Assembly: GCF_023169885.1 (NCBI RefSeq)
Contig: NZ_AP025516.1
Span: forward strand, 2,769,501 to 2,833,500
Direction of reading: 5' to 3'
Origin: Desulfofustis limnaeus
Lineage (GTDB): Bacteria > Desulfobacterota > Desulfobulbia > Desulfobulbales > Desulfocapsaceae
Length of the DNA: 64,000 bases
A model generated the notes under the pieces. It was not told the DNA's origin. It saw only the letters and a program-made list of their open reading frames with translations, and did no database searches. The position numbers and the translations under genes are program-made. Below are positions 2,813 to 45,836 of the stretch, piece after piece. Position 1 is the first letter of the stretch. Every line of letters begins with the position of its first letter.

Positions 2813-2835
2813 GGGTTTCTCTCCACCTGAAGATT

Positions 2836-3696: not shown

Positions 3697-3851
3697 TGGA
3701 CAACTCTCAAATCCCCTTGAGGATCAAATATTTACGACACCTAGGGGTAATTTTATCCAAATACCATGACCAGGTCAAGCCCGGAAGATTCTTTCCCCCA
3801 AAGAAAGAGACGTGCGACAAGGAACTTCCTCTGTCATCGTCGCTGTCGCGG

Positions 3852-5856: not shown

Positions 5857-5870
5857 AACCGCTTCCGTCC

Positions 5871-10211: not shown

Positions 10212-10222
10212 AACGAAATCGA

Positions 10223-10576
10223 TCAGCGTTTCGATGACGGTTCTCCTTCTATCGTCTGCCCTGCTGCATCATCATCGGCGATCCACGGTTTCAGACCGCT
10301 CTTCAACGACGCCTTGGACATGGCGTGGCTGGCCGTTGTTCCAGCCAGCAGAGAAAACAGCAGGATCAGAATCAGTTTAGCCAGCACCAGCCCCCACCCT
10401 GCCTGGAGCATTAATCCGGTAAGGATCAACCCAGCCCCCAGCGTGTCGGTAAGACTGGCCGCATGGATTCGCGTGAAGAAGTCGGGAAAGCGTAACAGGC
10501 CGATACCGCCGGTCAGACAGAAAAAGCTGCCCGAAACAAGAAGAATCCAGGAAAGAATGTCCAGCAAGATATCCAT
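10223..10576 (-). CDS. mrpG: Antiporter subunit MrpG-like
   Basis: A 117-residue protein with MrpG features: FCLTGGIGLLRFPDFFTRIH followed by AASLTDTLGAGLILTGLML is the family signature. Three hydrophobic helices are present and the tail is polar. The ATG at 10576 overlaps the TGA of mrpF (TGATG), so I used it and not the TTG at 10579. It is an inner-membrane accessory subunit of the cation/proton antiporter. Confidence 0.87.
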   Translation of the reverse strand: MDILLDILSWILLVSGSFFCLTGGIGLLRFPDFFTRIHAASLTDTLGAGLILTGLMLQAGWGLVLAKLILILLFSLLAGTTASHAMSKASLKSGLKPWIADDDAAGQTIEGEPSSKR

Positions 10577-10848
10577 CAATCCCCTTCCTCCGTCGGTTTC
10601 TTGGTGGAGTACTCAAAAAACCGTAATATTCCTATAACGCTGATAAAGTTTATCAGGGCATAGACGATGGCAATGTCGAGGAAATCAGGACGCCCACTGA
10701 GAAAACCGAGGACGGCGATCAACAACACCGTCTTGGTGCCGAAGTTGTTCACCGCCAGGATCCGATCGTATAAAGTCGGCCCCTTGAAGGCCCGCGTCAG
10801 TGCGAGCCCCATGACCACAAGAATTATCAACGCGGTCAATTCGTACAT
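10576..10848 (-). CDS. mrpF: Antiporter subunit MrpF-like
   Basis: A 90-residue protein with the MrpF signature: ALTRAFKGPTLYDRILAVNN followed by a three-helix pattern (TKTVLLIAVLGFLSG, IAIVYALINFISVIGILRFF). The ATG at 10848 overlaps the stop of mrpE (TAATG), which decides the start against the longer frame to 10866. It is an inner-membrane subunit, translated with its neighbours. Confidence 0.87.
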   Translation of the reverse strand: MYELTALIILVVMGLALTRAFKGPTLYDRILAVNNFGTKTVLLIAVLGFLSGRPDFLDIAIVYALINFISVIGILRFFEYSTKKPTEEGD

Positions 10849-11318
10849 TAGCGCTCCACGAGGCAAACACGCCGGTCCATGTCACCGGTGAGCAGGCCGG
10901 CCGCCGATTCCTTGGTCAGGGCATGGACCACGATTTTATCGCCTTCCAGATCGACGCTGACCGTACCCGGCGTCAACGTAATGGAGTTGGCGTAGATGAC
11001 CTTGCCGATATCGGTTTTCTGATTGGCGGTAATGGTGATCAAACGGGGGCTGATCGACTCGGTGCCCCGCCAGACATTGGCCGCCACGGCAAGATTGGAG
11101 ACCACCACTTCCTTGATCAGCCAGAGCCAATAGCCGGGGATGGAAAAGGTAAGATTGAGGGGCTGCGACTCTCCGTCCACCACGTCCAGTCGGTTGCAGA
11201 GACTGACCACGAGAGCGACGGAAACCACCATGAAAAACAGGATAAGAGGGGTATAATGACCGGAATTGATCAGCCAGAAGGCCGATAGGAGGGTCGATAA
11301 AGCCAATACGTGTCGCAT
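10848..11318 (-). CDS. mrpE: Antiporter subunit MrpE-like (first gene of operon)
   Basis: A 156-residue MrpE-like membrane protein. Two hydrophobic segments at the N-terminus (LALSTLLSAFWLINSGHYTP, LILFFMVVSVALVVSLCNR) are followed by YWLWLIKEVVVSNLAVAANV and a soluble part with YANSITLTPGTVSVDLEG, the conserved MrpE signature. The ATG at 11318 has GGGGGA 4 bases upstream; the frame can be extended to 11417 but without a ribosome site. The operon reads E-F-G-AB-C-D-D-small-D. The family name is secure; transported ions and coupling are not visible. Confidence 0.88.
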   Translation of the reverse strand: MRHVLALSTLLSAFWLINSGHYTPLILFFMVVSVALVVSLCNRLDVVDGESQPLNLTFSIPGYWLWLIKEVVVSNLAVAANVWRGTESISPRLITITANQKTDIGKVIYANSITLTPGTVSVDLEGDKIVVHALTKESAAGLLTGDMDRRVCLVER

Positions 11319-11427
11319 GATTCCCCCGGTGTGTACCCCGTCGATGTGCTTCCGACATGCGCGGAACAGACAGAAGACGGTACAGATCGGTACAAACGCC
11401 ATACCGTTCTCCAACACAACAGGAATC

Positions 11428-11457
11428 TTCCTACCACTTCAAAACTACTTGTGTCAA
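11428..11457 (-). promoter_or_regulatory. Candidate promoter of the Mrp-like operon
   Basis: On the minus strand TTGACA (11457-11452) is followed after 18 bases by TAGGAA (11433-11428), about 110 bases before the mrpE start. The -35 is perfect but the -10 is weak, so this is only a candidate. The surrounding 263 bases (11319-11581) hold no gene. Confidence 0.3.
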
Positions 11458-11581
11458 GCATTACCGAAAACGATGGAATGATTTTTTATGAATAATTCTG
11501 GGCGTTACAAACTGTTACTGCCGCCTCGACAGGTTCGGCCGAAGGGGGTAGCAGGGGGCGAAAAGCCGACGAACAGATCGA

Positions 11582-11776
11582 TTAGCAACCGTGCTTATGC
11601 AAGAAATCCTCAACCATTTCCTGCATGATAGCGAGTCGGGAGCGACCTGTTTCGTGGACCAGCAACCATGAACAGCGTTGCCAGGATCGGTACAGATGGG
11701 GAGGAACCAGCAGCTTGAGCTCGCACCATTGGGAGGCCGACGACGGATCGGTGTCCTGTTCGGGCCCGTCGTTCAT
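11582..11776 (-). CDS. Small hypothetical protein downstream of hisA
   Basis: A 64-residue protein not recognised as a known family. Its ATG overlaps the TGA of the HisA gene (ATGA), which supports translation. The sequence has a hydrophilic N-terminus (NDGPEQDTDPSSASQW) and then CELKLLVPPHLYRSWQRC and IMQEMVEDFLHKHGC, likely helical, with three cysteines. No membrane segment is present. Confidence 0.5.
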   Translation of the reverse strand: MNDGPEQDTDPSSASQWCELKLLVPPHLYRSWQRCSWLLVHETGRSRLAIMQEMVEDFLHKHGC

Positions 11777-12549
11777 GGGGACACCTGCAAGCGATGGTGA
11801 AAAGAGACGACATCGGCATAGGCGAGAGAGGTGCCGCCGAAGATGTCCAGGGCACTGCCGACGGTGGCGTCAAGTCGGCCGTCGGCCATATGCCGGATAA
11901 GCTCGAGATCCTCCAGGTTGCGGATGCCGCCGGCATAGGTGGTAACCAGTGGACTCGCTTCGGCCAGAATGCGCAGCAGGTTGGCATCGACCCCCTGGCA
12001 GCGGCCTTCCACATCGGCGGCATGAACCAGGAACTCGGCGCAATACCCGGCCAGTTCTTGCAGTTCTTCGGCGGTGATGCGAATGTCGGTAAAACGTTGC
12101 CAGCGATCGGTGACGATGTAATAGTCCTCCCCTCGCCGGCGACAGCTCAAATCGAGGACCAGTCGCTCCCGACCCACCGCCGCGCTGAGCCCGGCCAAAC
12201 GCTGCCGATCGAGTCGTCCCTGGGAAAAGACCCAGGAGGTCACAATCACATGGGAAGCCCCGCGCTCCAGCCAATCGGCTGCGTTTTCCACGGTGATCCC
12301 CCCGCCGATCTGCAATCCTCCCGGCCAGGCGGCAAGCGCTTCGGTCGCGGCCGCTTCATTGCCGGGACCGAGCATGATGACATGACCGCCGGCCAGACCG
12401 TCCCGACGATAGAGGTGAGCAAACCAGGAGGCGGGACGGTCGGCGACAAAATTGGTCTGCAGGTGGGCCGGATCGTCATCCCGCAGGGTAGAGCCGACAA
12501 TCTGCTTGACCACTCCATTGTGCAGGTCGATGCAGGGTCTGATCCTCAT
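11773..12549 (-). CDS. hisA: HisA, eukaryotic-type ProFAR isomerase
   Basis: Phosphoribosylformimino-5-aminoimidazole carboxamide ribotide isomerase catalyses the fourth step of histidine synthesis. The 258-residue sequence starts MRIRPCIDLHNGVVKQIVGS, which matches the eukaryotic (yeast HIS6-like) branch and not the common bacterial HisA with its IPAIDL start. Other landmarks are GLQIGGGITVENAADWLERG, the substrate phosphate site, and TTYAGGIRNLEDLELIRHM. It is not in a his operon here: it follows a RecA-like ATPase by 46 bases and precedes a 64-residue protein. The branch assignment comes from pattern recognition and would need a tree. Confidence 0.82.
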   Translation of the reverse strand: MRIRPCIDLHNGVVKQIVGSTLRDDDPAHLQTNFVADRPASWFAHLYRRDGLAGGHVIMLGPGNEAAATEALAAWPGGLQIGGGITVENAADWLERGASHVIVTSWVFSQGRLDRQRLAGLSAAVGRERLVLDLSCRRRGEDYYIVTDRWQRFTDIRITAEELQELAGYCAEFLVHAADVEGRCQGVDANLLRILAEASPLVTTYAGGIRNLEDLELIRHMADGRLDATVGSALDIFGGTSLAYADVVSFHHRLQVSP

Positions 12550-29998: not shown

Positions 29999-30004
29999 GA
30001 TATA

Positions 30005-30147
30005 GGGGAGCTTGAAAAATTCGAGATTTCGTTCAAGATCGAGGCGCGCAAGATCATTTTACCGCAGGCATATACATGATATTCCGAGGATAAAATGTGA
30101 TTGCGCAACGATGCGATTGAACGGAATGGCCCTTTTTCAAGGTTTCC
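30005..30147 (+). repeat. Palindromic dispersed repeat, copy A
   Basis: A 143-base element that shares most of its sequence with 44094-44235. It is an imperfect inverted repeat over its whole length: CTTGAAAAA at one end pairs with TTTTTCAAG at the other, GTTCAAGATCGAGGCGCGCAA with TTGCGCAACGATGCGATTGAAC, and CATTTTA with TAAAATG near the centre. It has no coding capacity. It may be a miniature inverted-repeat element or a structured RNA signal. It lies in the 484-base gap between cooT and the ferritin-like gene, which otherwise holds no gene. Confidence 0.8.
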
Positions 30148-31167: not shown

Positions 31168-32484
31168 ATGGCCGAAGCAGTCGTGAAAATTGAAGGGAAG
31201 GCCAAGCACTCCCTTCTGGACGAGGTCAAGCACCTACTCCCCGACGGCAATCCCAGTCTCTGTCTCACCTGTGGTCTCTGTGCTTCAGGCTGCCCGGCCA
31301 CCGGGCTGGAAGACATGGACCCACGCAAATTCCTGCGTATGCTGGTGCTGGGTATGGATGACGAAATCCGCGCCTCCAATTGGCCGTGGATGTGCACCAT
31401 GTGTCAGCGTTGCGTCTATGTCTGCCCGATGAAAATCGACATCCCGCAGTTGGTCTTCAACATCCGTGCCAACCGCCCACGGGACGAACGTCCGAAAGGG
31501 ATACGCGGTTCCTGCGACGTGGCCGTGGCCAGCGAGACGCTGAGCGCCATGGGTACCCCGGTGGAGGACTTCAAGTTCGTGGTCAACGACGTGCTGGAGG
31601 AATACCGGGCGTCCCAGCCCGAATTCGCCGACATGCAGGCCCCCATCGACAAGGACGGCGCCGAGTTCTTCATCAATCAGAACTCCCGGGAACCCATGAC
31701 CGAACCGGACGAAATGGTGCCGCTCTGGAAGATCCTGCATCTGGCCGGGGTCGACTGGACCTACAGCAGCAAGGCCTGGGCGGCTGAGAACTACTGCCTG
31801 TTCCTGGCAGACAACGAAAACTGGGAACGTATCGTCCGCGCCAAGGCCGAAGCCGCCGACCGGCTCAGGTGCAAGACCTACCTCAACACCGAGTGAGGTC
31901 ACGTGACCTTTGCAGTCCGGGCCGGACTGAAAAAGTTCAACGTCAAGCACAACTTCGAGACCAAAAACATCTACGAATACTACGCCACATGGATTCGGGA
32001 GGGACGGCTGCAACCGAGCTCGGACTGGAACAAGGAACGGGGTGTCAAGTTTACCGTCCAGGACCCCTGCCAGATCGTACGCAAAAGCTTCGGCGACAAG
32101 ATTGCCGACGATTTTCGCTTTGCCATTGCTGCGGCGGTGGGCGAAGAAAATATCGTCGAGATGTGGCCGAACAAGTCGAACAATTACTGCTGTGGCGGTG
32201 GCGGAGGATTTCTTCAATCAGGATTCAAGGATCAGCGGCTGGCCTACGGCAAGATCAAGGACGACCAGATCAAGGCCACCGGCGCCCAGTATTGCATCGC
32301 CGGCTGCCACAACTGCCACAGTCAGATCCACGAGCTTTCGCACCACTACGGCGGACATTATCAGGTGGTCCATTTCTGGACCATCCTGGCGCTCGCCCTC
32401 GGCATCCTCGGGCCGAACGAGCGGGCGTACCTGGGTGACGACCTCCGGGAGGTCAACGTTTTCCACCCGGAGACGGCCTTGTGA
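31168..32484 (+). CDS. HdrD-like iron-sulfur protein, selenocysteine-containing (U243)
   Basis: A 438-residue electron-transfer protein with an in-frame UGA at 31894-31896 read as selenocysteine. The N-terminal HdrC-like part has two [4Fe-4S] motifs (C32, C35, C38, C42 in LCLTCGLCASGCP; C76, C79, C82, C86 in MCTMCQRCVYVCP). The second half is a CCG domain: the usual ECGH is E-U-GH here, followed by DPC (C301), NNYCCGGGGGF (C341-C342) and CIAGCHNC. That all downstream motifs are intact argues against a frameshift or pseudogene. A hairpin 16 bases after the UGA may be the SECIS. The gene opens the operon. It probably passes electrons to a thiol/disulfide or membrane partner. Confidence 0.88.
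31913..31929 (+). promoter_or_regulatory. SECIS-like hairpin after UGA 31894
   Basis: CAGTCCG, loop GGC, CGGACTG: perfect 7-bp stem starting 16 bases after the UGA. A second palindrome, AGGTCACGTGACCT, directly follows the UGA. Position fits a bacterial selenocysteine insertion element. Confidence 0.55.
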
Positions 32485-32621: not shown

Positions 32622-33734
32622 ATGCAGCTCACCAAACAGCAGGTCGATTATTGCATGGAGTGCGGGGTTTGCACCGGCAGCTGCCCCATCAGCTATGAAC
32701 GGCAGGGATTCTCGCCACGGCAGATGATCAAGCGAACCCTGGTGGACCCCGACGAACACCTCATGCAATCGAGTGATCTCTGGGCCTGCCTGAGTTGTTC
32801 GCGCTGCAGCGATCGTTGCCCGGTGGGTATCGACTTCCCCGAGTTCATCCGGTTACTGCGGGAAAAGGCGCTGACCACCGGCAATGCGCCGCGGCTCAGT
32901 CATCACGGAATCTTCCAGACCATCACCACCCTTCAGTCAGGCACCCTGCAGCAAAAGCGGACCGCCTGGGCGGCTTCCGTCGGCAAATTCCGCGACCAGG
33001 GCGACTATTTTTATTTTGTCGGTTGCGCCCCGTACCACCAGACCGTTTTTCGCTACCTTGACCTGGAGATGCTCAATACCGCCAAATCGATCCTGAGGCT
33101 GCTCAACAAAGTCGGGATCGAGCCGGTGCTCAGCGATGATGAGCGTTGCTGCGGCCACGATGCCTTCTGGAGCGGAGAGCGGGAGCTTTTTGCCACCCTG
33201 GCCCGGAAAAACGTCGAGACTATCGTCCGTTCCGGAGCCAAGACCGTGATCTTCGGATGTCCGGAGGGCTATGCGACGTTTCGCGAGCATTATCCGGCCG
33301 TGGTTGGGGACCTGCCCTTCACCATCGTCCACGCCACTGAGTTTCTCCTCGCCCGGCTCAAGGAAGCAGGTACCATTTTTACCGCAGCGAACGACGGTCC
33401 CGTCACCTTTCATGACCCGTGCCGTCTCGGTCGACGGATGGGCATGTACGAACAGCCACGGCAGCTTCTCTCCCTGGTCCCCGATTGCGACCTCAGGGAG
33501 ATGGAAAACAACCGGGAAAATGCTGTCTGTTGCGGCACCACCGCTTGGATGGAGTGTTCGTCATGTTCGAAGACCATGCAGATCAACCGCCTCCACGAGG
33601 CGCAGCGGACCGGTGCCGAAACGATGATAACCGCCTGCCCGAAATGTCAGATTCACCTGAGTTGCGCCAAATCGAGCACCGACCTTAACCTGCAGATCAC
33701 CGATCTGTATCAGTACCTGTCGGAGCGACTGTAA
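32622..33734 (+). CDS. Fused HdrC-HdrB-like protein (two CCG domains)
   Basis: A 370-residue protein combining HdrC and HdrB. The N-terminus has two [4Fe-4S] motifs ([13 protein letters not shown] and [13 protein letters not shown]). Two CCG domains follow: [30 protein letters not shown]; then [27 protein letters not shown] and [10 protein letters not shown]. In methanogen HdrB these bind the noncubane clusters that split a disulfide. All cysteines are standard here. It starts 137 bases after the HdrD-like selenoprotein and 53 bases before HdrA. A disulfide or other two-electron acceptor is likely; which one is not visible. Confidence 0.87.
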
Positions 33735-33787: not shown

Positions 33788-36700
33788 ATGAAAGCTCAAC
33801 AAGCGCCAACCGTTCAGGGCTCGGTGATGGTTGTCGGCAGCGGCATTGCCGGTATGCAGGCCGCACTCGACCTTGCCGATTCCGGTTTTTACGTCTATCT
33901 GGTGGAAAAGGCCGCTTCCATCGGCGGGGTCATGGCCCAGTTGGACAAGACCTTTCCCACCAATGACTGTGCGATGTGAGTCATCTCACCGAAACTGGTC
34001 GAGGTCGGCCGGCACCTGAACATCGAACTAAAAACTCTGTGTGAAGTTAAGTCCATCGGCGGCAGCGCCGGGAACTTCGAAGTGGAGTTGCTGCAGCACC
34101 CACGCTTTGTCGACATGGACAAGTGCATCGCCTGCGGCGCCTGTGCCGAGAAATGCCCGAAAAAGGTGAGCGACGCCTTCAATGCCGGACTGGACAAGCG
34201 GAAAGCCATCTACGTGGAATATGCCCAGGCTGTACCGCTCAAATATGCCATCGACAAGGAAAACTGCCTCTACTTCACGAAGAATGGGAAATGCGGCTTC
34301 TGCAAGAAGGTCTGTCCCGCCGACGCTGTTGATTTCGACCAGCGCGAGCAAACCGTCACCCTCAACGTGGGGTCGGTAATTGTCGCCCCGGGTTTCACCA
34401 CCTACGATCCCACCGGTCTGGACACCTATCAGTACGGTCGCTTCGCCAACGTGGTCACGTCGCTGGAGATGGAGCGCCTGCTCAGCGCCACCGGTCCCTT
34501 CCAGGGTCACCTGATCCGGCCGTCCGACCACCGGGAGCCGAAGAAGATTGCCTGGCTCCAATGTATCGGCTCGCGTGATATCAACAAATGCGGACACGGG
34601 TACTGCTCGTCGGTCTGCTGCATGTACGCCGTCAAGGAGGCGGTGATCGCCAAGGAACACGCCGGCGCGGAGTTGGATACCGCCATCTTTTTCATGGATA
34701 TGCGCACCTACGGCAAAGAGTTCGAGAGCTACTACGAGCGTGCCAAAAATGAGAAGGGGGTCAGGTTCATCCGCTCGCGGGTCCACTCCATCGTCGAGGA
34801 CCGGGAGACCAAAGACCTGTCGCTGCGCTACGTGGATGAGGCGGGAAACGTCCTGGATGAGCGCTTTGACCTGGTGGTATTGTCGGTCGGCATGGAATCG
34901 TCACCGCAACTGGTGGAACTGGCCGAACGCGTGGGCATCGAACTCAACGACGACCGCTTCGCCGCTACCCGCACCTTCTCCCCGGTGCAGACCTCGCGCG
35001 ACGGCATCTATGTCTGTGGGGCCTTCCAGGAACCGAAAGACATCCCCTATTCGGTCATGGAGGCCAGCGCTGCCGCCTGCGGCGCCGAGGCGACCCTGGC
35101 CCGGGCCCGTGGGACCCTGACCCGGAGCAAGACCTATCCGCAGGAGCAGGCGACGACCGGCGAGGAGACACGCATTGGCGTCTTTGTCTGCAATTGCGGC
35201 ACCAACATCGGTGGCATCGTCGATGTCCCAGGGGTAGCGGCAATGGCCCGCACCTTGCCCGGCGTCGCTTACGTGGAGGAAAACCTGTTCACCTGCAGCC
35301 AGGACAGCCAGGACCGGATCCGCGACACCATCAAGAAGGAGAAGCTCAACCGGGTTGTCGTCGCCGCCTGCACACCACGCACGCACGAAGACCTCTTCCA
35401 GGAGACCCTGCGCGACGCCGGGCTGAACAAATACCTTTTTGAGATGGCCAATATCCGCAACCAGTGTTCCTGGGTTCACTCCGGAGACAAGGGGGCGGCC
35501 ACCGACAAGGCCAAGGGCCTGGTACGCATGGCCGTGGCTCGAGCCCGGCTGATCACGCCGTTACCGCAACCCTCCATCGGCGTGACCAAGAGCGCCCTGG
35601 TGGTCGGCGGCGGCATCGCCGGCATGACCGCGGCCCTAGGGTTGGCCGAGCAGGGATTCCCCGTCCATCTGGTGGAACGAAGCGATGTCCTGGGCGGCAA
35701 CGCCCGCCATTTGATCGCCACCTGGGAAGGCGAGTCGGTGGCCGACAATCTGGCCTCGCTGACCGAATCGGTCCAGAATCACCACCTGATTCAGGTCCAT
35801 CGCCAATCCCAGGTGCAACACGCCAGCGGCTTCATCGGCAATTTCGAGACCACCATCGCCGCAACCGACGATCCGACTAAGACCTTCACCGTCCGCCATG
35901 GAGCGGTGATCGTCGCCACCGGCGCCCGGGAGTACGTGCCGACCGAATACCGCTACGGCACCGACGACCGCGTCCTGACCCATCTCGACTACGACCGGGC
36001 TAGCCAAGCCGGGGATAAACGAATCACCGGCGCCGAGTCCATCGCCTTCATCCAGTGTGTCGGCTCGCGGGAACCGCAACGCCCCTATTGCTCCAAGGTC
36101 TGCTGCACCCATACCATCAAAGCGGCCTTGGCCTGCAAGAAGCGCAACCCGGAGATGAATGTCTTCGTCTATTACCGCGACATCCGCACCTACGGTCGCC
36201 GTGAATCCTTGTACAAGGAGGCCCGGGAGCTGGGTGTCATCTTCATCCGCTACGACCGTGAGCACAAGCCGCAGGTCCACAGCGAGGCCGACGGCCTCTA
36301 TATCACCGCCCGGGATCATGTCCTGGGCATGGATCTGGAGCTGCGGGTCGACCTGCTGGTCCTGGCCGCCGCCATTGTCGCTGGTGACAACGAAGCCCTG
36401 GCCAAACTGTTCAAACTGTCATCCAGCAACGACCATTTCTCCAACGAGGCGCACGCCAAGCTGCGTCCGGTGGAATTCGCCACCGCCGGAATTTTCCTGG
36501 CCGGCATGGCCCATTACCCCAAACCAATCGAAGAGAGCATCACCCAGGCCAGTGCCGCAGCCTCCCGGGCAGCGGTGACGCTGGCCCAGGATTCGATCAC
36601 CGTCGACGGCGTGGTATCACAGGTCGACCATTTCATGTGTCGCGGTTGCGGCGAATGCGAGCGGGCCTGCCCGTTCAACGCCATCGCCGTGGAAACCGCC

Positions 36701-36847
36701 AGCGACGGCAGCAGGGTGGCTGCCGTCAAGGAGGCTCTGTGCAAAGGCTGCGGCATGTGTGCCGTCGCCTGCCCGACCGGAGCGGCCAGCGTCCGCCACT
36801 ATCACGACCAAGAGGTGCTGACCATGGTGGAGGCCGCCTTTGACTGA
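33788..36847 (+). CDS. hdrA: HdrA-like flavoprotein, double module, selenocysteine U64
   Basis: A 1019-residue flavin- and iron-sulfur protein. The UGA at 33977-33979 replaces a conserved Cys in [20 protein letters not shown]. Selenocysteine at this site is known in HdrA of Methanococcales. Module 1 has a Rossmann motif ([19 protein letters not shown]) and ferredoxin motifs near residues 110 and 167. Module 2, from about residue 365 ([14 protein letters not shown]), repeats the HdrA fold with [19 protein letters not shown] near 605, and the C-terminus has two [4Fe-4S] motifs ([26 protein letters not shown]). HdrA is the FAD subunit that performs electron bifurcation. MvhD follows by 91 bases. 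Confidence 0.9.
33989..34008 (+). promoter_or_regulatory. Possible SECIS after UGA 33977
   Basis: CCGA and TCGG (33989-33992, 34005-34008) enclose a 12-base apical part containing GGTC, the loop motif of known bacterial SECIS. The stem is short, so support is weaker than for the other UGA codons. Confidence 0.35.
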
Positions 36848-36938: not shown

Positions 36939-37358
36939 ATGTCCGCAGCATTCGAACCGAAAATCATTGCCTTTGCCTGCAATTGGTGCGCCTACTCCGC
37001 CGCCGACCTGGCCGGTGTCAGCAGGTTCCAGTATCCACCGAACCTGCGGATCATCAGGATCATGTGTTCGGGCCGCATCAATCCGAACTTCCTGCTCAAG
37101 GGCTTTGAAAACGGTGCCGACGGCGTACTCGTCGCCGGCTGACATATTGGTGACTGCCATTACCTGGACGGTAATGCCAAAGCAGAAAAGGTCTTCGCGG
37201 CCGCCCGCGAGGTGGCGGAGACGCTTGGTATCGAACCGGGCCGGCTCCGTCTGGAATGGATATCCTCAGCGGAAGGAACGAAGTTTGCCGAGGTAGCCGC
37301 TGATTTCACCCGGCAGATCAAGGCGCTCGGTCCACTGCGGATCGGCACACCGGCCTGA
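36939..37358 (+). CDS. mvhD: MvhD/FrhD-like [2Fe-2S] protein, selenocysteine U68
   Basis: A 139-residue protein that connects HdrA with a hydrogenase or formate dehydrogenase in known complexes (MvhD/VhuD). [19 protein letters not shown] carries the first Cys pair, IRIMCSGRI the next, and the UGA at 37140-37142 stands at [18 protein letters not shown], where relatives have Cys or Sec. The protein continues for 71 residues in the same frame to a TGA at 37356. The ATG at 36939 lies 91 bases after HdrA. A perfect 7-bp hairpin 15 bases after the UGA is a good SECIS. Confidence 0.92.
37158..37176 (+). promoter_or_regulatory. SECIS-like hairpin after UGA 37140
   Basis: CATTACC, loop TGGAC, GGTAATG: perfect 7-bp stem beginning 15 bases after the UGA. 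The same design recurs at 40897 and 46112 in the other MvhD genes. Confidence 0.7.
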
Positions 37359-37393: not shown

Positions 37394-38926
37394 GTGTATA
37401 AGGACATGCTCGTCATCGGCGGTGGTATCGCCGGCATCCAGTCCTCGCTGGATCTGGCCGAAATGGGGTTCAAGGTACATCTGGTCGAACGGCTGCCGAG
37501 CATCGGCGGCAAGATGGCCCAGTTGGACAAGACCTTCCCGACCAACGACTGCGCCATCTGAATCCTGTCGCCGAAGATGCTGGATGTCGGTCGACATCCC
37601 CATATCGAATTACTGGCGTACAGCGAAGTGGAAGCGGTGGAGGGGAGTGCCGGCTGTTTCACCGCCACCATCCGCAAAAAGGCCCGTTACGTGGATTCCG
37701 CTAAATGCACTGGTTGTGCAGCCTGCACCGAGGTCTGTCCGACGATCGTGGCGGACCGGTACAACGAAAATCACTCCACCCGCAAGGCCATTTACAGCTG
37801 GTTCGCCCAAGGCATCCCGTCCACCCATACCATCGACACCGATCATTGTCGTGTCTTCCAGGGGAAAAAATGCGGGGCCTGCCAGAAGAAGTGCGAAGCG
37901 GGTGCCATCGATTTCGAACAACGTGACCAGGTGATCAAACTGGAGGTGGGCGCCGTCATCGTGGCCAACGGCTACCAGGTGTTCGACCCAAGCCGGATCC
38001 CGGAATATCGTTATCGGGATCTGCCCAACGTGGTGACGGCCATGGAGTTTGAGCGGTTTCTCAGCGCCAGCGGACCCACCCATGGCCACGTCTACCGCCC
38101 CTCGGACCTGGCCGTGCGCAACGAGATCGCCGCCCTGGAAAAACAAGAAGCGCGGGCCCGGCGCGGCCTGGCCCGCTTTGAGGAGAAACACGGGCAGAGC
38201 TCGGAAGCCTTCTACCAGCAACAGCGCAGCGGCGGCCAACCGGCCGAAGCGGACCTGCAGCAATGGCTGGAGAAATACGAGGAATACCTGCCGCTGAAGA
38301 CCCGGCTCGACGCCCTGCAGGAACAGGCAAAGACCATCCGTACCGCAAAGAAACTGGCCTTCATCCAGTGTGTCGGCTCGCGAGATCTGCGATTTTACCC
38401 GTTTTGCTCCGGATTCTGCTGCATGCACTCGATCAAAGAGGCGATCATTGCCCACGAGCATGACAACGATACCACCTCGGTGATCTTCGGCATGGATATT
38501 CGCGCGGTTAGCAAAGGGTTCGAGGAGTACAAGGTGCGCGGCGGCAACAAATCCAACATCAACTATCGGCGTAGCCGGGTTGCCGAGATCGTCAGCGACG
38601 CCAACCACAATCCGGTGCTCGTCTATGAGGACACGAAAGAGCAGCGGGTCAAACGGGAGACCTTCGACCTGGTCATCCTGGCCACCGCCTGCCAGCCGGC
38701 CGACGGCATGGCCGACTTGGCCGGGGTCCTCGGCATCGACCTGAACCAGTTCGGCTTTTTTGCCACCAGTCCGGAAAACCCCGTCGACACCTCCCGGGAA
38801 GGTATCTTCGTCTGCGGCTGCGCCCACAGCCCCATGGACATTCCCGAATCGGTGGCCCAGGCCAGCAGCGCCGCATCCCGGGCGGTACAGGCGGTAACCC
38901 AGGCGAATCTACTCACGGTCGTGTAA
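37394..38926 (+). CDS. HdrA-like flavoprotein, first half of a split HdrA (QmoA-like), U56
   Basis: A 510-residue protein equal to module 1 of the double HdrA. GGAGG precedes the GTG start at 37394 (an ATG at 37406 is also in frame). The UGA at 37559-37561 lies in [20 protein letters not shown]. Rossmann motif [19 protein letters not shown] is near the N-terminus, and ferredoxin motifs ([28 protein letters not shown]) near 103 and 158. Residues about 245-312 ([20 protein letters not shown] and on) form a helical insertion absent from the other HdrA proteins here. The second half is the next gene, 11 bases on. QmoA is the closest named relative; a role in FAD-based bifurcation or quinone-linked electron transfer is inferred. 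Confidence 0.87.
37582..37599 (+). promoter_or_regulatory. SECIS-like hairpin after UGA 37559
   Basis: GGATGTC, loop GGTC, GACATCC: perfect 7-bp stem with the classic GGTC in the loop, beginning 20 bases after the UGA. Confidence 0.55.
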
Positions 38927-38937
38927 AGGTGTCGAGT

Positions 38938-40608
38938 ATGAAAAAGGAGCAACGCAAAGACGAGGACCTGCGCATCGGCGTCTTCATCTGTGACTGCGGT
39001 TCAAACATCGCCGGACATCTGGACTGTTCGTCGGTCACCGATTACGCCGCCACCCTGCCCGGTGTCGTCTATACCAAGGAAAATCTCTATACCTGCTCGG
39101 AGTCGGGTATCCACGAGATCCAGGACGCCATCAAGAAGCACAACCTCAACCGGGTGGTGGTCGCCTCCTGCTCGCCGCGCACCCATTTTCCGCTCTTTTC
39201 CAGTTCCTGCGCCCAGGCAGGCATGAACCCCTACCTGTTCGAGATGGTCAACATCCGCGATCAATGTTCGTGGGTGCATATGGGCCAACGGGGCATCGCC
39301 ACCGCCAAGGCCAAAGATCTGGTGCGTATGGGCGTGGCCAAGAGTGCCGGCCTCGAACCGCAGCAGGAGATCGAATCGTCGCTGATCCGCAAGATCCTGG
39401 TAATCGGCGGCGGCATCGCCGGCTTGTCTGCAGCACAAGCCTTGCGCGGCATGGGTTTGGAAGTGTTGCTGGTCGAGCAGGAGAACGAACTGGGCGGTCT
39501 GCTGCGCCAGCTCAACGTGCTTGACGACGGTTCATCCGCGGCCGATCAGGTGGCCGCTCTGGCGGCGCGGGTCTGTGCCGCCGACGGCATCACCGTCCGG
39601 ACCGGGGCCACGGTAGCCGCAATCAACGGCTACATCGGCAATTTCACCGCCACCATCGAACACGAAGGCCAGCAACACGAGGAAACGGTCGGCTGCATCG
39701 TCGTCGCCACCGGCGCCATTCCGCTCTTGGAGGCAGGCCTGCTCGGCCACAACGGCACCTCGGTGATCACCCAGATGGAGTTGGAGCAGCGGCTCAAACA
39801 AGGTCCCTTGCAGGCGTCGCGGATCGTCATGATCCAATGCGCCGGCTCGCGTAACGAAGAACGGGAATACTGTTCCCGGATCTGCTGCGCCACGGCGGTG
39901 AAAAACGCTATGTTGATCAAGCGCGCCATGCCGCTGGCTAACGTCCGGATTCTCTACCGCGACATGCAGATGTACGGCGACGTCAAAGAAAAGATGCTGT
40001 GGGACGCCCGGGGGCTCGGAGTCGGGTTCGAGGTCTACGACGCCGACAAAGAGATCCAGGTCAGGGACGGCTCGGTCGTCTTCCACCAGGCGGTACTCGG
40101 TGAAACCAAGGAGTTGCCCTGCGACCTGGTGGTGCTTGCCACGCCTTTGGTCCCACGACCCGAGAGCGCGACGGTGGCCGGCTTGATGCGGGTGCCCACG
40201 GACAAAAACGGCTTTTTCCTGGAAGCCCACGCCAAGCTGCGTCCGCTCGATTTTGCCGCCGACGGCATCTTCGTCTGCGGCAGCGCCCGCTTCCCCGCCA
40301 CCTCCGTGGAAGCGCGGACCCAAGGCATCGGCGTTGCGGCACGGGTAGCCGCCATCCTGTTCAAGGACAAGCTGATCAAAAGCGCCATCGTCGCCCAAGT
40401 TGACGAGACATCCTGCGTCGGCTGCATGGGCTGCCTCAACGTCTGCCCCTACGAGGCAATCAAGTACGACAGCAAAAAACGAGTCTGCGTGGTCCAGGAG
40501 ATCCTCTGCAAAGGGTGCGGCAACTGCGCCGCCACCTGCCCGTCGCACAGCATCATCCTCAGGGGCTACCGGCCCGAACAGTTATTGGCCCAGATCCGGG
40601 CGTTGTAA
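38938..40608 (+). CDS. HdrA-like flavoprotein, second half of a split HdrA (QmoB-like)
   Basis: A 556-residue protein equal to module 2 of the double HdrA. It begins IGVFICDCGSNIAGHLDCSS, then NRVVVASCSPRTHFPLFSSS, RDQCSWVHMGQRGIATAKAK, the Rossmann motif [19 protein letters not shown] near residue 154, and ends with two [4Fe-4S] motifs (SCVGCMGCLNVCP, LCKGCGNCAATCP). I chose ATG 38938, with AAGGTG 6 bases before it; GTG 38929 is possible. All cysteines are standard. With the upstream gene it rebuilds one HdrA. QmoB is the nearest named relative, but the MvhD part fused to QmoB is a separate gene here. Confidence 0.87.
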   Translation: MKKEQRKDEDLRIGVFICDCGSNIAGHLDCSSVTDYAATLPGVVYTKENLYTCSESGIHEIQDAIKKHNLNRVVVASCSPRTHFPLFSSSCAQAGMNPYLFEMVNIRDQCSWVHMGQRGIATAKAKDLVRMGVAKSAGLEPQQEIESSLIRKILVIGGGIAGLSAAQALRGMGLEVLLVEQENELGGLLRQLNVLDDGSSAADQVAALAARVCAADGITVRTGATVAAINGYIGNFTATIEHEGQQHEETVGCIVVATGAIPLLEAGLLGHNGTSVITQMELEQRLKQGPLQASRIVMIQCAGSRNEEREYCSRICCATAVKNAMLIKRAMPLANVRILYRDMQMYGDVKEKMLWDARGLGVGFEVYDADKEIQVRDGSVVFHQAVLGETKELPCDLVVLATPLVPRPESATVAGLMRVPTDKNGFFLEAHAKLRPLDFAADGIFVCGSARFPATSVEARTQGIGVAARVAAILFKDKLIKSAIVAQVDETSCVGCMGCLNVCPYEAIKYDSKKRVCVVQEILCKGCGNCAATCPSHSIILRGYRPEQLLAQIRAL

Positions 40609-40674: not shown

Positions 40675-41112
40675 ATGACCAACGACACCTTTGAACCGAA
40701 AATCGTCTGCTTCCTCTGCACCTGGTGAGCGTACGCCGCTGCTGACCTGGCTGGGGTCAGTCGTTTGCAGTACCCGGCGAATGTTCGCACCGTCCGGGTA
40801 ATGTGCAGTGGTAGTGTGTCGCCGCATCATGTCCTGCTCGCCTTTCAGCAGGGGGTCGACGGGGTGTTTGTCGGCGGCTGACATCTGGGCGAATGCAATT
40901 ACCTGTATGGTAATTATTCGGCCAAAAAACGCATCACCGTCCTCCGGGAGCTCCTGTCTTTCAGCGGTATCGACAAAGCGCGGCTGCGGGCCGGCTGGGT
41001 GTCGTCGGCCGAGGCGCCCGAACTGGTTCAGGAGTTCAACTCCTTTATCGAAGAACTGCGCGCGCTCGGACCGTCGCCGCTGAAGCAAGATTACCGCAAG
41101 GAACTGGTATAA
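40675..41112 (+). CDS. mvhD: MvhD/FrhD-like [2Fe-2S] protein with two selenocysteines (U18, U69)
   Basis: A 145-residue MvhD with two in-frame UGA codons. The first (40726-40728) lies in KIVCFLCTW-U-AYAAADLAG, where the other MvhD proteins here have Cys; the second (40879-40881) in VFVGG-U-HLGECNYLYGN, the position that is Sec in all three. Both fit cluster-ligand cysteines. The frame runs to TAA 41110. The ATG follows CAGGAA. Each UGA is followed by a hairpin. Without recoding no long frame exists here, so it is easily missed by gene callers. It probably links the split HdrA with the formate dehydrogenase encoded next. Confidence 0.9.
40742..40760 (+). promoter_or_regulatory. SECIS-like hairpin after UGA 40726
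   Basis: CTGACC, loop TGGCTGG, GGTCAG: 6-bp stem beginning 13 bases after the UGA. Confidence 0.5.
40897..40915 (+). promoter_or_regulatory. SECIS-like hairpin after UGA 40879
   Basis: AATTACC, loop TGTAT, GGTAATT: perfect 7-bp stem beginning 15 bases after the UGA, the same layout as at 37158. Confidence 0.7.
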
Positions 41113-41142: not shown

Positions 41143-41949
41143 ATGATTGACGCAATCCGCAACCGGGTGACTGAACTCCTGGAATCGGGCAAGATTGATG
41201 GTTTTCTCGGCCTGGCCCTGCAGCACGGTCACGTCGCCCCGCACCTCTACCAGCGCGGTGACGACCTTGCCGAGCTGATGCTCGGTGACCGGGAGCGTCC
41301 CGGCGATGCCCGCTACCCGCTCAACAAGTATCTGATCAACCTGGCCCGGGCTTACCCCGACAAGACGTTCGGCGTCCTGGTCCGGGGCTGCGACGACCGT
41401 GGTCTGAAAACGCTCTACACCTGGAACCAGCTCAGCCCGAACAAGGTGGTGCCGGTGGGGATCGCCTGTCCCCAGGAACTTGCCGACCGCTGTCAATGCT
41501 CGGCCCCCTACCCGGACGAGATTGTCGCCGGCGAAAAGGCCGAACCGGTGGCGTTCGCTTCGGTGACGGCAGTGGAAGAGCTCGAGCTGTCCGATCGTTT
41601 TTTCTTCTGGATGAAGGAGTTCGTCAAATGCATCAAATGCTACGGGTGCAGCAACATCTGCCCGATGTGTTTCTGTAACGAATGCAGCCTCACATGCGAC
41701 GATCTGATCAAGCGGGGAGAGATCCCTCCGGAGATTCCGGTCTTCCACCACACCCGGGCGATGCATATGGTCGGCCGCTGCATCGATTGCGGACTCTGTG
41801 AAGAGGCCTGCCCATCGGATATCCCGCTGCGTACCCTGTACAAGAAGGTAAACAGCATCCTGGCCGACTCGTTCGACTACACCACCGGGCTGCGCCGCGG
41901 CCAGCGTTCGCCGCTGAACATCCTGGATCCCTTCGACGCCAAGTCATAG
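41143..41949 (+). CDS. FdhB/FrhB-like iron-sulfur protein
   Basis: A 268-residue protein. The N-terminal half resembles the FrhB/FdhB beta-subunit family (NLARAYPDKTFGVLVRGCDD followed by RGLKTLYTWNQL), and the second half has two cluster motifs: KCIKCYGCSNICPMCFCNEC near residue 162 and RCIDCGLCEEACPSDIPLRT near 213. It lies 30 bases after mvhD and 13 bases before fdhA, the place of an electron-wiring subunit between formate dehydrogenase and MvhD/HdrA. Whether it binds flavin is not clear from the sequence. Confidence 0.8.
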   Translation: MIDAIRNRVTELLESGKIDGFLGLALQHGHVAPHLYQRGDDLAELMLGDRERPGDARYPLNKYLINLARAYPDKTFGVLVRGCDDRGLKTLYTWNQLSPNKVVPVGIACPQELADRCQCSAPYPDEIVAGEKAEPVAFASVTAVEELELSDRFFFWMKEFVKCIKCYGCSNICPMCFCNECSLTCDDLIKRGEIPPEIPVFHHTRAMHMVGRCIDCGLCEEACPSDIPLRTLYKKVNSILADSFDYTTGLRRGQRSPLNILDPFDAKS

Positions 41950-41962: not shown

Positions 41963-44002
41963 ATGGATTATCGGACCGTACTCACCACCTGTACCTATTG
42001 CGGCTGCGGCTGCAACTTCTTCATCGAAGTCCTGGACGGCGAGCCGATCGGCACCATCCCGTGCAAGACCAGTCCGGTGAACGAGGGTAAGCTGTGCATC
42101 AAGGGCTGGAACGTACATGAATTCATTCGTAACGAGAAACGGCTGAAGCGGCCGCTGCTGCGTAAGAACGGCGTGCTCGAAGAAGTCTCGTGGGACGAAG
42201 CCCTCGCCTTCACCGCCAAGAGATTGCATGAGATCAAGGCGCAGAACGGTCCCGACGCCATCGGCTTCCTGACTTCTGCCAAGGTGACCAACGAGGAGAA
42301 CTACCTGCTGCAGAAATTCGCCCGGGCAGCGGTGGGAACCAACAACATCGACCATTGCGCCCGGCTCTGACACAGCTCGACTGTGGCAGGTCTTGCCGCA
42401 TCGTTTGGCAGCGGAGCGATGACCAACTCCATCGCGGAGATGGAAGAGGCCGATTGCATCTTCATCATCGGCTCCAACACCACCGTGGCCCACCCGCTCA
42501 TCGCCACCCGCATCTTTCGCGCCAAGAAGAACGGGGCGAAGATCATCGTCGCCGACCCGCGCAAGATTCATATCTCGGAGATCGCCGATCTGCGCATCAA
42601 CCACCGGATGGGTACCGACGTCGCGCTGCTTAACGGCATCATGCACGTGATTCTGCACAACGGTTGGCACGACCAGGCCTATATCGACGAGCAGACCGAG
42701 GAGTTCGCCGCGTTTGCCAAGATCATCGAGCCGTTCACCCCGGAGATGGCGGCCGAGATCTGCGGCATACCGGCGGCCCAGATACGAGCGGCCGCTGAAC
42801 TCTACGGCCGGGCCGACAAGGGCTCCATCGTCTACTGCATGGGGATCACCCAGCACACCACCGGGGTGGACAATGTCAAGACCCTGGCCAACTTGGCCAT
42901 GCTCACCGGCAATCTGGGTCGGGAGTCCGCCGGGGTCAACCCCCTGCGCGGCCAGAACAACGTGCAGGGGGCCTGCGACATGGGCGGCCTGCCCAACGTC
43001 TTCACCGCCTACCAGGCGGTGACCAGCCCCAAGGCCGCCGAGACCTTCGCCGCCGCCTGGGGCGTCGACTCCCTTTCCCAGCAGATCGGCCTGACCATCC
43101 CCGGCATGCTCGACGGTCTGGACGGCGGCACGGTCAAGGCCCTCTACATCATGGGCGAAAACCCCGTGGTCTCCGACCCGGACGTCAACCATGTCAAGAA
43201 ATCACTGAAAAATGCCGAGTTCCTCGCGGTGCAGGATATCTTTTTGACCGAGACCGCCGAACTGGCGGATGTGGTACTGCCCGGCGTCTGCTTTGCCGAA
43301 AAGGATGGAACCTTCTCCAACACCGAGCGGCGCGTCAGCCGGGTCCGCCAGGCCGTGCAACCGTTAGGAGAGGCTCGCCAGGACTGGCAGATCATCCAGG
43401 AGGTGGCGACCCGTTTCGGTTATCCAATGAACTATTCCGGACCGGAGGAGATCTTCCGGGAAATCGCCTCACTGACCCCATCGTACGGCGGCATGTCCTA
43501 CGAGCGACTCGAAGGGGACGGTCTGCAGTGGCCCTGCCCGACAGCCGATCATCCCGGCACCCGCTACCTGCACAAGGGCAAGATCGCACGCGGCAAAGGG
43601 CTGTTCCACACCATCGCCTTCCTGCCGCCGGCCGAGCCGGTGGACGAGGAGTTCCCGTTCTGGTTTTCCACCGGGCGGGTCTTCGCCCATTACCATACCG
43701 GCACCATGACCAGGAACTCACCGAGCCTGGATGCGGAGATCGAGGAAGGCTTCATCGAGATCAGCGGCGACGACGCCCGGCGTCTGGAGATCAACCACGG
43801 TGACACGGTGACCATATCGTCACGCCGCGGCTCGGTCGACGTCAAGGCCCTGGTCACCGGCAGGATCGATCCGGGATCGGTGTTCATGCCCTTCCACTTC
43901 GTCGAGAGTTGCGCCAACATCCTGACCAATACCGCTCACGACCCCATCTGCAAGATCCCCGAACTCAAGGTCTGCGCGGTCAATATCAAAAAAGCCGCCT
44001 GA
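41963..44002 (+). CDS. fdhA: Formate dehydrogenase alpha subunit, selenocysteine U136
   Basis: A 679-residue molybdenum- or tungsten-dependent formate dehydrogenase. The N-terminal [4Fe-4S] motif is TTCTYCGCGCNFF with a later CIKG. The active-site UGA (42368-42370) lies in NIDHCARL-U-HSSTVAGLAA, the standard position of the Sec that binds Mo/W, next to His. ADLRINHRMGTDVALLNGIM, KTLANLAMLTGNLGRESAGV and the C-terminal molybdopterin domain (WFSTGRVFAHYHTGTMTRNS) are typical. No Tat signal is present, so it is cytosolic, unlike respiratory FDHs. The ATG has AGGAAA upstream, 13 bases after the FdhB-like gene. It ends the operon before a strong terminator. It may oxidise formate or reduce CO2 with low-potential electrons. 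Confidence 0.95.
42383..42399 (+). promoter_or_regulatory. SECIS hairpin of fdhA
   Basis: GTGGCA, loop GGTCT, TGCCGC (one G-U pair), beginning 12 bases after the UGA. The GGTCT loop and its position closely resemble the well-studied E. coli fdhF element. Confidence 0.75.
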
Positions 44003-44064: not shown

Positions 44065-44093
44065 CACCGTCTAGCCCGGCGGTTGCGCCTTCA

Positions 44094-44235
44094 GGGGAGC
44101 TTGAAAAATTCGAAATTCCGTTCAAGGTCGAGGCGCGCACGAACATTTTATCTCAGGCATATACATGATATTCCGAGAATAAAATGTTACTGCGCAACGA
44201 TGAGACTGAGCGAAATGGCAATTTTTCACGGTTCC
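44094..44235 (+). repeat. Palindromic dispersed repeat, copy B
   Basis: A 142-base copy of the element at 30005, in the same orientation relative to the window. Inner palindrome CATTTTATCTC...GAGAATAAAATG and outer arms TTGAAAAATT...AATTTTTCA are kept although individual bases differ, which suggests that the fold matters. It lies between the metF stop (44239) and the terminator at 44029-44064, so it would be in the metF 3' untranslated RNA. Confidence 0.8.
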
Positions 44236-44238
44236 CTT

Positions 44239-45174
44239 TCAGTCGATCTGAGGCCGTGGATAGAGGCCTGAACGCTCGACGATTTCCGGCACCTTCTCTT
44301 CCCACTCGATGGCCATCACATGAAACCCGGCCACGCCTTTGCACTCCTTGAGGCGCTGGATGGTCTCCACGGCAATGGTGATCCCTTCATCGGCCTGTTT
44401 GCTCTTTTCCACCCCTTTCATCCGCTCGATCAACTCGTCCGGCACATCCATGCCCGGCACATTCTTCTGCAGATAACGGGCCATACCAACGGAACGCAAG
44501 GGGGTGATACCGGCCAGGATATAGACTTTCTCATGAAGACTGCGCTCCCGGACGCCTTCCATCCATTTCTCAAACTTGTCCAGGTTATAGATGCACTGGG
44601 TCTGAATGAATTCGGCACCGCAGGCCACCTTCTTAGCCAAGCGCGGCACCCGGATCTTGAACGGATCGCCAAACGGGTTGGCGGCGGCGCCGACGAACAT
44701 CGACGGCGGCTGCTTGATCTCGTCGCCACTGAGGAATTTTCCTTCATCGCGCATGTGGCGAACCGTTTGCACCAGCTGCATGGAATCCAGATCGAAGACG
44801 TTCTGTGCCTGGGGATGGTCACCGAAGCGCTGGTGGTCTCCGGAGAGGCAAAGCACGTTCTGGATGCCGAACGAGGCGGCGCCGAGGATATCGGACTGCA
44901 GGGCGATCCGATTGCGGTCGCGCACCACCATCTGCAGGACCGGATCGAGCCCCTGGAGTTTCAGATGAACGCAAGCCGCCAGACTGCAGAGCCGGGTCAC
45001 CGAGGTCTGGTTGTCGGTGACATTGATGGCATCGACGTGGTCCTTGATCAAATGTCCCTTCTTGATGATGTGCGAGGCATCGGCCGACCGGGGCGGCCCA
45101 CACTCGCTGGTGACCGCCTGGTGGCCGCTTTTAAGGACCTTCTCCAACCTGCTGCCGGTGATCGTCTCAACCAT
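44239..45174 (-). CDS. metF: Methylene-tetrahydrofolate reductase
   Basis: Reduces 5,10-methylene-THF to 5-methyl-THF, the last reductive step of the methyl branch of the Wood-Ljungdahl pathway, and also supplies methionine synthesis. The 311-residue barrel has KSGHQAVTSECGPPRSADAS at the N-terminus, DHVDAINVTDNQTSVTRLCS, NVLCLSGDHQRFGDHPQAQN (FAD site region) and the C-terminal GVAGFHVMAIEWEEKVPEIV. The ATG at 45174 overlaps the metV stop (TAATG) and follows GGAGG. With MetV, MvhD and HdrA upstream it matches the acetogen-type MetFV/Hdr/MvhD arrangement in which methylene-THF reduction is linked to electron bifurcation. That coupling is inference here. Confidence 0.93.
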   Translation of the reverse strand: MVETITGSRLEKVLKSGHQAVTSECGPPRSADASHIIKKGHLIKDHVDAINVTDNQTSVTRLCSLAACVHLKLQGLDPVLQMVVRDRNRIALQSDILGAASFGIQNVLCLSGDHQRFGDHPQAQNVFDLDSMQLVQTVRHMRDEGKFLSGDEIKQPPSMFVGAAANPFGDPFKIRVPRLAKKVACGAEFIQTQCIYNLDKFEKWMEGVRERSLHEKVYILAGITPLRSVGMARYLQKNVPGMDVPDELIERMKGVEKSKQADEGITIAVETIQRLKECKGVAGFHVMAIEWEEKVPEIVERSGLYPRPQID

Positions 45175-45836
45175 TAGAAGTCCTCCAATCTGAATGCCCG
45201 CGGGCCGCCCGCCCGATCCTTCGACCAATCTTTGATCGGCATCACCTTCTCGTAATCACCAAGGCGGCCAAGTGCCTCCAGCCGGTCGACGACCAGTTGC
45301 CAGGCACACTCGGTTTCCTTGGAGATCTCACATTTACCGTTGGTCGAACCGCCGCAGGGGCCGTTGAGCAGCCGTTTGGCGCAGCGGCTCACCGGACAGA
45401 CGCCACCGGTTACCCCGAGCACGCAGTCGCCGCAGGCCTGGCATTTTTCGCGAAACAACCCGACTTCCGGGACATCGCCGAGAAACGTCGTGTTGAGCGC
45501 CGGGTAGACGGGAATCTTCGGATATCGTTCAGCCATGAACTGGACGCCGATCCCACAGGCCAGGCTCAAGACTGCTTCCGAACCACGAATCAGCTCGTCG
45601 GTGCGCTCGAAGAACTCGTGCTCGCACTGACGCTCGACACCGCTGTCCACAATCTCCCTGGCCAAGTCCTCCTGGGTGGCTCGCATCCGCAGTTGCGAAG
45701 CGAGGATGCCGGCCTCCTTGTTGCCGCCCTGGTGGCAAACGGCCACACAGGTATTGCAGCCGAACACGGTCAGCTGCCGATGGTCCTTGACCATCTGCCA
45801 GATTTCTTCAAACGGTTTCTGTTGTCCGACGATCAT
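45174..45836 (-). CDS. metV: MetV-like zinc-binding partner of MetF
   Basis: A 220-residue protein of the family that accompanies MetF in acetogens. It begins MIVGQQKPFEEIWQMVKDHR and TVFGCNTCVAVCHQGGNKEA, and has a C-terminal cysteine-rich segment (CQACGDCVLGVTGGVCPVSR then CAKRLLNGPCGGSTNGKCE), the MTHFR C-terminal zinc/iron-sulfur domain. It overlaps metF by one base. In the Moorella system MetV is needed for MetF activity and links it to Hdr proteins. The mvhD stop lies 44 bases upstream. Confidence 0.87.
   Translation of the reverse strand: MIVGQQKPFEEIWQMVKDHRQLTVFGCNTCVAVCHQGGNKEAGILASQLRMRATQEDLAREIVDSGVERQCEHEFFERTDELIRGSEAVLSLACGIGVQFMAERYPKIPVYPALNTTFLGDVPEVGLFREKCQACGDCVLGVTGGVCPVSRCAKRLLNGPCGGSTNGKCEISKETECAWQLVVDRLEALGRLGDYEKVMPIKDWSKDRAGGPRAFRLEDF

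Follow-up and report, generated by a model that had tools for sequence, protein, structure and literature searches.

Selenoproteins of the Fe-S oxidoreductase-like (GlpC) type, which carry the motif UGH, form a published family; the accessible part of a 2026 review describes it and considers the functions of such families largely uncharacterised (PMC13188914), and the family is also found in the accessible parts of PMC9312934, PMC5029168 and PMC8318568. One GlpC protein is attributed to Desulfovibrio vulgaris in the available text of Zhang et al. According to the sections of PMC1794560, PMC9312934 and PMC13188914 at hand, members of the family (PTHR43551) combine UGH at the TGA codon with a bacterial SECIS-like hairpin and, in Deltaproteobacteria, are encoded in an operon with selenocysteine (Sec)-containing HdrA and FrhD/MvhD; in these sections the operon also holds the hydrogenase genes frhG-frhA. 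HdrD4 of Desulfobacterium autotrophicum HRM2 is named a selenoprotein in the accessible part of PMC2702500.

Here we describe a GlpC-type gene of Desulfofustis limnaeus. Its product is a genuine selenoprotein that joins HdrC- and HdrB-type parts. We propose, with a probability of about 0.5 for the explanation as a whole, that it would hold two ferredoxin clusters and a single noncubane [4Fe-4S] site and be linked to HdrA, MvhD and formate dehydrogenase, and that Sec243 would act as a redox-active selenolate placed in a vacated first cluster site and facing the noncubane cluster.

Results

An HdrD-like selenoprotein gene in D. limnaeus

The window analysed is a stretch of 64,000 nucleotides of the D. 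limnaeus genome (one contig, 4.23 Mb, 97.83% complete). The gene, delimited by its open reading frame, Pfam matches and alignment, lies on the plus strand at 31168..32484, with an ATG at 31168 and a stop TGA at 32482-32484, and encodes 438 residues including Sec243. The Sec codon, assigned from the reading frame and from homologue comparison, is the TGA at 31894..31896 on the same strand (codon 243, context YLNTEUGHVTF). A preliminary description of this DNA had read EUGH (242-245) at this place, followed in frame by DPC (299-301), CCG (341-343) and C376xxxC380xxC383; this reading was confirmed, with the qualification that C376 is variable, being Cys in 30 of the 90 distinct homologues. Two Pfam domains score above their cut-offs, a dicluster Fer4_8 at residues 31-90 and a single CCG at 296-387. 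The description of the protein as HdrD/DsrK-like was right. The genome contains three Sec copies of the gene family, at 2800668 on the plus strand and at 2903808 and 3202413 on the minus strand. A plasmid search yielded one partial match.

Judged from motif, domains and gene order, the gene belongs, as an ordinary member, to the Fe-S oxidoreductase-like selenoproteins of the published GlpC (UGH) type: the TGA is followed by GH in a Fer4 plus CCG protein, a SECIS-like hairpin with G in the loop lies just past the TGA, and Sec-containing hdrA and frhD/mvhD genes are adjacent. Sec is usual at the E-U-G-H site within this family, whose UGH motif is already in print (PMC13188914). HdrD4 of strain HRM2, as described in the accessible part of PMC2702500, is alike in having HdrC and HdrB domains, in being a selenoprotein and in belonging to a sulfate reducer with many Hdr genes.

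Sec/Cys exchange at residue 243

A search of 395 genomes of the phylum, D. limnaeus included, gave some match in 382 of them, and 52 of the 69 matches listed at 52% identity or more contain an internal TGA. For closer comparison, 90 loci were assembled, 60 of them hand-picked with Cys copies favoured, which gave 91 proteins and, after one exact duplicate was dropped, 90 distinct ones. Residue 243 is Sec in 68 of these and Cys in 22 (20 TGC and 2 TGT) with no other residue, although 68:22 is not a population ratio as 60 of the loci were picked, partly for the absence of TGA. The preliminary description had stated that its reading would fall if no homologue had Cys at this site or if 31894-31896 were a sequence error; the 22 Cys homologues dispose of the first objection, and the TGA at exactly the same site in the 68 others disposes of the second. 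Throughout the HdrD-like family the proteins can be aligned past the TGA to near their ends.

Among named GTDB loci, EUGH was found in all 80 that were compared (the 80 top matches among at least 562 relatives), with titles that point to Desulfo- or deltaproteobacterial organisms such as Desulfospira, Desulfocicer, Desulfobacter and Desulfofustis. A further search for relatives gave, besides the window gene, 29 loci that overlap in part with the earlier homologue loci: 25 have EUGH, 3 have ECGH and one, in a shorter subfamily (L315, G396:C2), has ESGH in the context PESGHSYY. With this Ser copy, the exchange of Sec and Cys has one genuine exception, which counts against our explanation.

On a tree of 135 rows thinned from 185 and built with the site masked (one TmcB-like protein, L274, was left out, and long-branch warnings apply), the Sec/Cys state changes at least 16 times and Sec rows fall in four separate parts. 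Repeated Sec/Cys exchange at one residue is the strongest indication of its functional role. Frequent exchange would also suit a Sec243 that is mainly protective, resisting irreversible oxidation and allowing faster reactivation after oxygen while keeping the catalytic role that Cys would have, and so would the Cys paralogues that stand alongside Sec copies in several genomes, since Cys is then enough in some settings. Sequence cannot separate protection from a catalytic advantage. The hosts come from anaerobe groups, in which the need for protection is lowered if not removed, and we regard a mainly protective role as decidedly improbable.

SECIS-like hairpin and Sec machinery

A SECIS-like hairpin was found on the plus strand at 31913..31929, with a 7-bp stem and a GGC loop (31920-31922) that starts 24 nt past the TGA. 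Two hairpins form when the 47 nt from the TGA onwards are folded (-17.6 kcal/mol, z -2.64), and a hairpin with a 3-nt loop starting 24 nt past the TGA recurs among the Sec genes. When a hairpin was scored as at least 4 pairs with the loop start 14-30 nt past the TGA and G in the first two loop bases, it was present in 60 of 68 Sec genes as compared to 5 of 22 Cys genes, and the mean folding z was -1.33 in the former and 0.18 in the latter. At the fixed stem, 86.6% of cells are paired in Sec genes against 48.9% in Cys genes; sliding one arm lowers the pairing of Sec genes to 21-52%. Two-sided changes, counted as cells, that is, as sequences and not as events, amount to 84 at the fixed stem against 2-51 when slid, the -1 slide still giving 51. 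The first loop base is G in 68/68 Sec genes and in 14/22 Cys genes. The Rfam SECIS models gave no match, a point against our explanation, and the two chance-level Rfam matches obtained are neither of them a SECIS.

A tRNA-Sec (72.5 bits, Rfam cut-off 47) and SelB (364.7 bits, cut-off 242.25) are encoded in the genome; of 14 control genomes, 5 have a tRNA-Sec and 2 a SelB above cut-off. No SelA was detected in the genome by TIGR00474, and PF03841 matched only below its cut-off. A SelA match was obtained in 20 of 23 other genomes searched, above cut-off in 18; it is missing from G399, G403 and G405, the last two of which still carry TGA copies of the HdrD-like gene. We take the absence of SelA as gaps or as a real puzzle, and as no evidence against Sec synthesis. 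It is the one point that would favour termination at the TGA, a sequencing error or a pseudogene. Against this stand the TGA at the same site in the 68 homologues and the 80 named loci, the covarying hairpin in Sec genes, the frame conserved past the TGA and the three Sec copies of the genome. A stop or an error is refuted by the homologue comparison, and this explanation is hardly credible.

Sec243 lies in a degenerate repeat of the HdrB-like fold

An AlphaFold model was obtained with a 42-row alignment (pLDDT 88.9). Its best solved structural match is EtfD of Mycobacterium smegmatis (9ojn; Z 26.5 over 368 residues, 2.6 A). The next matches are HdrB chains (Z 21.0-21.9), which cover residues 164-430 and hence place EUGH inside the HdrB-like fold. 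In the model, the succession strand 237-240, EUGH and helix 244-256 mirrors strand 375-378, C380xxC383 and helix 381-394. A profile HMM of the C-terminal half and three MAFFT runs, in which the L187 row was disregarded for its wrong reading frame, place U243 at EtfD Cys581 and H245 at His583; it should be noted that the HMMER posterior confidence around EUGH is moderate only, which counts against our explanation.

According to the accessible part of the EtfD study (EMBO J 2026, PMC13083937), Cys503, 538, 581 and 584 ligate a linear [3Fe-4S] cluster, and Cys637, 672, 673, 709 and 712 together with His583 ligate a noncubane cluster termed non-catalytic. The mycobacterial protein is alike in fold and in the spacing of its C-x-H, which aligns with U-G-H; it differs by a membrane part and by the four Cys of its linear cluster, of which the D. 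limnaeus protein keeps only the position of Cys581, as Sec. Among the 90 homologues no first-site Cys is conserved besides U/C243, so that Sec243 would be the sole surviving position of a vacated cluster site. H245, two residues past Sec243, aligns with His583 and, like E242, is invariant in 42/42 aligned rows; it is probably a His ligand of the intact noncubane cluster.

EUGH had been described as the first Cys motif of the CCG fold, and a first ligand of the intact CCG repeat was considered here as well. This placement was abandoned, as EUGH precedes the sole Pfam CCG (296-387) and both alignment and model put it elsewhere, namely at the first Cys of a CxxC in what is read as a degenerate N-terminal CCG-like repeat whose other ligands have been lost. 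Eight ferredoxin Cys and the CCG-repeat Cys 301, 341, 342, 380 and 383 are invariant in 90/90 homologues. The five usual noncubane ligands being always Cys, Sec243 replaces none of them. The D. limnaeus protein thus shares with HdrB and HdrD the Fer4 pair and the CCG fold with five Cys per noncubane cluster, and differs from them in having one intact CCG ligand set and a lone Sec/Cys in the first site. Identity with HdrD of HdrDE was rejected: the Fer4 pair and the HdrB-like domain are present, whereas two intact CCG sets and, among the nine operon proteins, an HdrE cytochrome b were not found.

Of the suggestion that Sec is a ligand or a redox residue, the presence of Sec at this site was borne out, and a place among the five usual ligands of the noncubane cluster was not. 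A direct bond between Se and Fe is possible. In such an arrangement Sec243 would be a true ligand, its selenolate bound to the noncubane cluster or to a small first-site cluster and tuning the potential, as might be suggested by the aligned EtfD Cys581, which ligates a cluster, and by the residue at +2, which ligates the neighbouring noncubane cluster. However, the first site lacks any other conserved Cys and the noncubane cluster is already served by five Cys, perhaps with His245. Moreover, among known cases Sec more often takes the place of redox thiols than of Fe-S ligands. We consider a ligand role of Sec243 unlikely.

It is also a point against the explanation that we prefer that EtfD, to which the fold is closest, relays electrons and performs no disulfide chemistry, according to the accessible part of PMC13083937. 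The D. limnaeus protein might likewise be a relay only, with no disulfide substrate, in which Sec243 would gate or tune the one-electron exchange of the noncubane cluster with a partner protein. Why a relay would need a free thiol or selenol is not obvious, and the D1 and D2 clusters of EtfD are fully ligated in the same account (PMC13083937). A relay role is in our view rather unlikely, and we retain a redox-active Sec243.

Sec in DsrK-, HmcF- and TmcB-like proteins

The D. limnaeus protein does not belong to DsrK (NF045796, 97.7 bits against a cut-off of 400), TmcB (NF045724, 175.1 against 735) or HmcF (NF045711, 154.5 against 750), all of which carry ECGH at the aligned place. The genome has a canonical DsrK elsewhere (2633655-2635067, 743.2 bits). 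Canonical DsrK was searched in 118 genomes, 61 of which had a match, and ECGH is present in all of the 30 best-scoring loci. EUGH was found in three DsrK-like proteins, L220, L219 and L218, which score 523.8, 532.7 and 536.3 bits with a DsrK cut-off of 400. In L219 (stretch 1-12451), the DsrK-like Sec protein is encoded beside a NarI-type protein whose DsrM match is below cut-off (188.9 of 300 bits), then come genes for a Rieske protein, a cytochrome b with c, and the flavoprotein, membrane and Fe-S subunits of a succinate dehydrogenase/fumarate reductase, with a fumarase gene upstream. In L220 a NarI-type protein and cytochrome b are encoded together with the Fe-S and flavoprotein subunits. 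L218, whose contig measures no more than 3.4 kb, likewise has a NarI/DsrM-like protein next to the Sec-containing one. These three stretches are short, and DsrJ, O or P could not be recognised in any of them. The NCBI DsrK model passes the Sec-containing DsrK-like protein though no DsrJOP is recognised nearby.

Among loci retrieved with HmcF, 3/30 have EUGH and 27/30 ECGH; among those retrieved with TmcB, 1/30 has EUGH, 28/30 have ECGH and one, L274, keeps the Cys and has lost GH. The two sets share four genes (L238, L239, L245 and L248 of the first are L282, L281, L279 and L280 of the second), and their Sec copies score below both family cut-offs. Stems follow the TGA in DsrK-, HmcF- and TmcB-like Sec genes, and some of their Cys sisters fold too. 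As Sec occurs at the same site in these three further subfamilies, our explanation of Sec243 is supported, while L274 counts against it. In another HmcF-type protein (L235, G091:C192; 853 bits, cut-off 750), an in-frame TGA lies within a ferredoxin Cys motif, LEICAHUAICAE; it is either an error or a Sec that replaces a cluster Cys.

A sequence search of the PDB for a DsrK structure returned only EtfD (E 0.0054), and a literature search over titles and the starts of abstracts found, among the 15 papers listed of 128, none reporting a DsrMKJOP structure. No paper was found on ECGH with heterodisulfide reductase or on DsrK with selenoprotein. In the accessible text of the open-licence literature, outside which most subscription papers fall, no report naming a DsrK-, TmcB- or HmcF-like protein as containing Sec was found, nor one that maps UGH on EtfD or HdrB, and where TmcB and selenocysteine occur in the same paper, TmcB is not named a selenoprotein in the available passages. 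Since COG0247, the published GlpC family, is a broad one, the HmcF- and TmcB-like Sec proteins, and the DsrK-like ones too, may already be counted within it.

The gene heads an HdrA, MvhD and formate dehydrogenase operon

All genes of the operon are on the plus strand. Downstream of the HdrD-like gene, 32622..33734 encodes a Cys-only protein with Fer4 and two CCG repeats and no Sec. Among 140 loci, a strong counterpart at the same place was found only in L099, the best-matching named locus; L144 has a weak match elsewhere. There follow a long HdrA-like gene at 33788..36847 (Sec codon 33977, NDCAMU), an MvhD/VhuD-like gene at 36939..37358 (Sec codon 37140, GUHIGDC), an HdrA-like gene in two parts, the first at 37394..38926 (Sec codon 37559, NDCAIU) and the second, without Sec, at 38938..40608, and another MvhD/VhuD-like gene at 40675..41112 with two in-frame TGA codons (40726, CTWUAYAA; 40879, GGUHLGEC). 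Between the latter and fdhA, 41143..41949 encodes a 4Fe-4S protein with weak Fer4 matches only, probably an electron-transfer subunit. The last gene, at 41963..44002, encodes a formate dehydrogenase alpha subunit (Sec codon 42368, ARLUHSS; TIGR01591, 857.7 bits, cut-off 666.25). With the codon at 31894, seven in-frame TGA are thus distributed over nine genes. No model match to a cytochrome b (HdrE) was obtained among the nine operon proteins. As a working model, the operon would encode a formate-linked HdrA complex in which the HdrD-like protein takes the role of HdrBC.

After the operon, the minus strand at 44239-45836 encodes MetF (MTHFR) and a protein with DUF5981, the MTHFR C-terminal domain. 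The operon as a whole lies between two copies of a 144-bp direct repeat that are 88% identical (30004-30147 and 44093-44236). The repeat is a dispersed one: of 121 first-look candidates over the genome, 40 were scored as copies, at 88-100% identity.

Compared by description with the published GlpC operon, that of D. limnaeus has a Sec-containing formate dehydrogenase instead of the hydrogenase genes, and the gene for the second two-CCG protein is an insertion. Strain HRM2 likewise has HdrA/MvhD selenoproteins and, at some of its Hdr loci, genes for formate dehydrogenase, according to the accessible part of PMC2702500.

Of 140 loci carrying the HdrD-like protein, HdrA-like genes are present at 87 and MvhD at 79. 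When only loci of at least 12 kb are considered, HdrA is found in 70 of 104 and not in the other 34, the latter counting against our explanation. The order hdrD-hdrA-mvhD, seen in many members of the family, recalls bamDEF of benzoyl-CoA reductase, in which the HdrD-like BamD is encoded ahead of the HdrA-like BamE and the MvhD-like BamF, a likeness in gene order; no other bam-like gene was recognised in the D. limnaeus operon. We know of no disulfide substrate for bamDEF, and the bamDEF-like order is a point against a disulfide mechanism.

Discussion

What we infer, from cluster occupancy, His ligation and complex formation to substrate and mechanism, would run as follows. Electrons would leave formate dehydrogenase, travel by way of MvhD and HdrA, and reach first the two ferredoxin clusters and then the noncubane cluster, ligated by Cys301, 341, 342, 380 and 383 and probably by His245. 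The sister cluster of the N-terminal CCG-like repeat would have been lost, leaving Sec243 as the one remaining ligand position. Sec243 would attack a disulfide or trisulfide substrate, possibly a DsrC-like protein or a small thiol, with Glu242 as proton donor, and the resulting selenosulfide would be reduced by the noncubane cluster in one-electron steps. Such a cluster-driven one-electron reduction of a disulfide is comparable to that carried out by ferredoxin:thioredoxin reductase.

Sec is usually the mark of a redox-active residue. By tentative extension, which we hold as somewhat doubtful, the Cys of ECGH, replaced by Sec in HdrD-, HmcF-, TmcB- and DsrK-like proteins, might be the redox-active residue in all proteins of the DsrK class, located in the site of a lost sister cluster and forming a cluster-plus-selenolate or cluster-plus-thiolate centre. 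If this is true, it would be the ECGH Cys of the DsrMKJOP subunit DsrK that attacks the DsrC trisulfide, and the Sec-containing DsrMK-like pair encoded in L219 and L220 together with a cytochrome b and a succinate dehydrogenase/fumarate reductase would be a new natural variant. The recurrence of Sec at one position of the DsrK class singles out the residue to mutate or label in sulfur-respiration and Hdr-type proteins.
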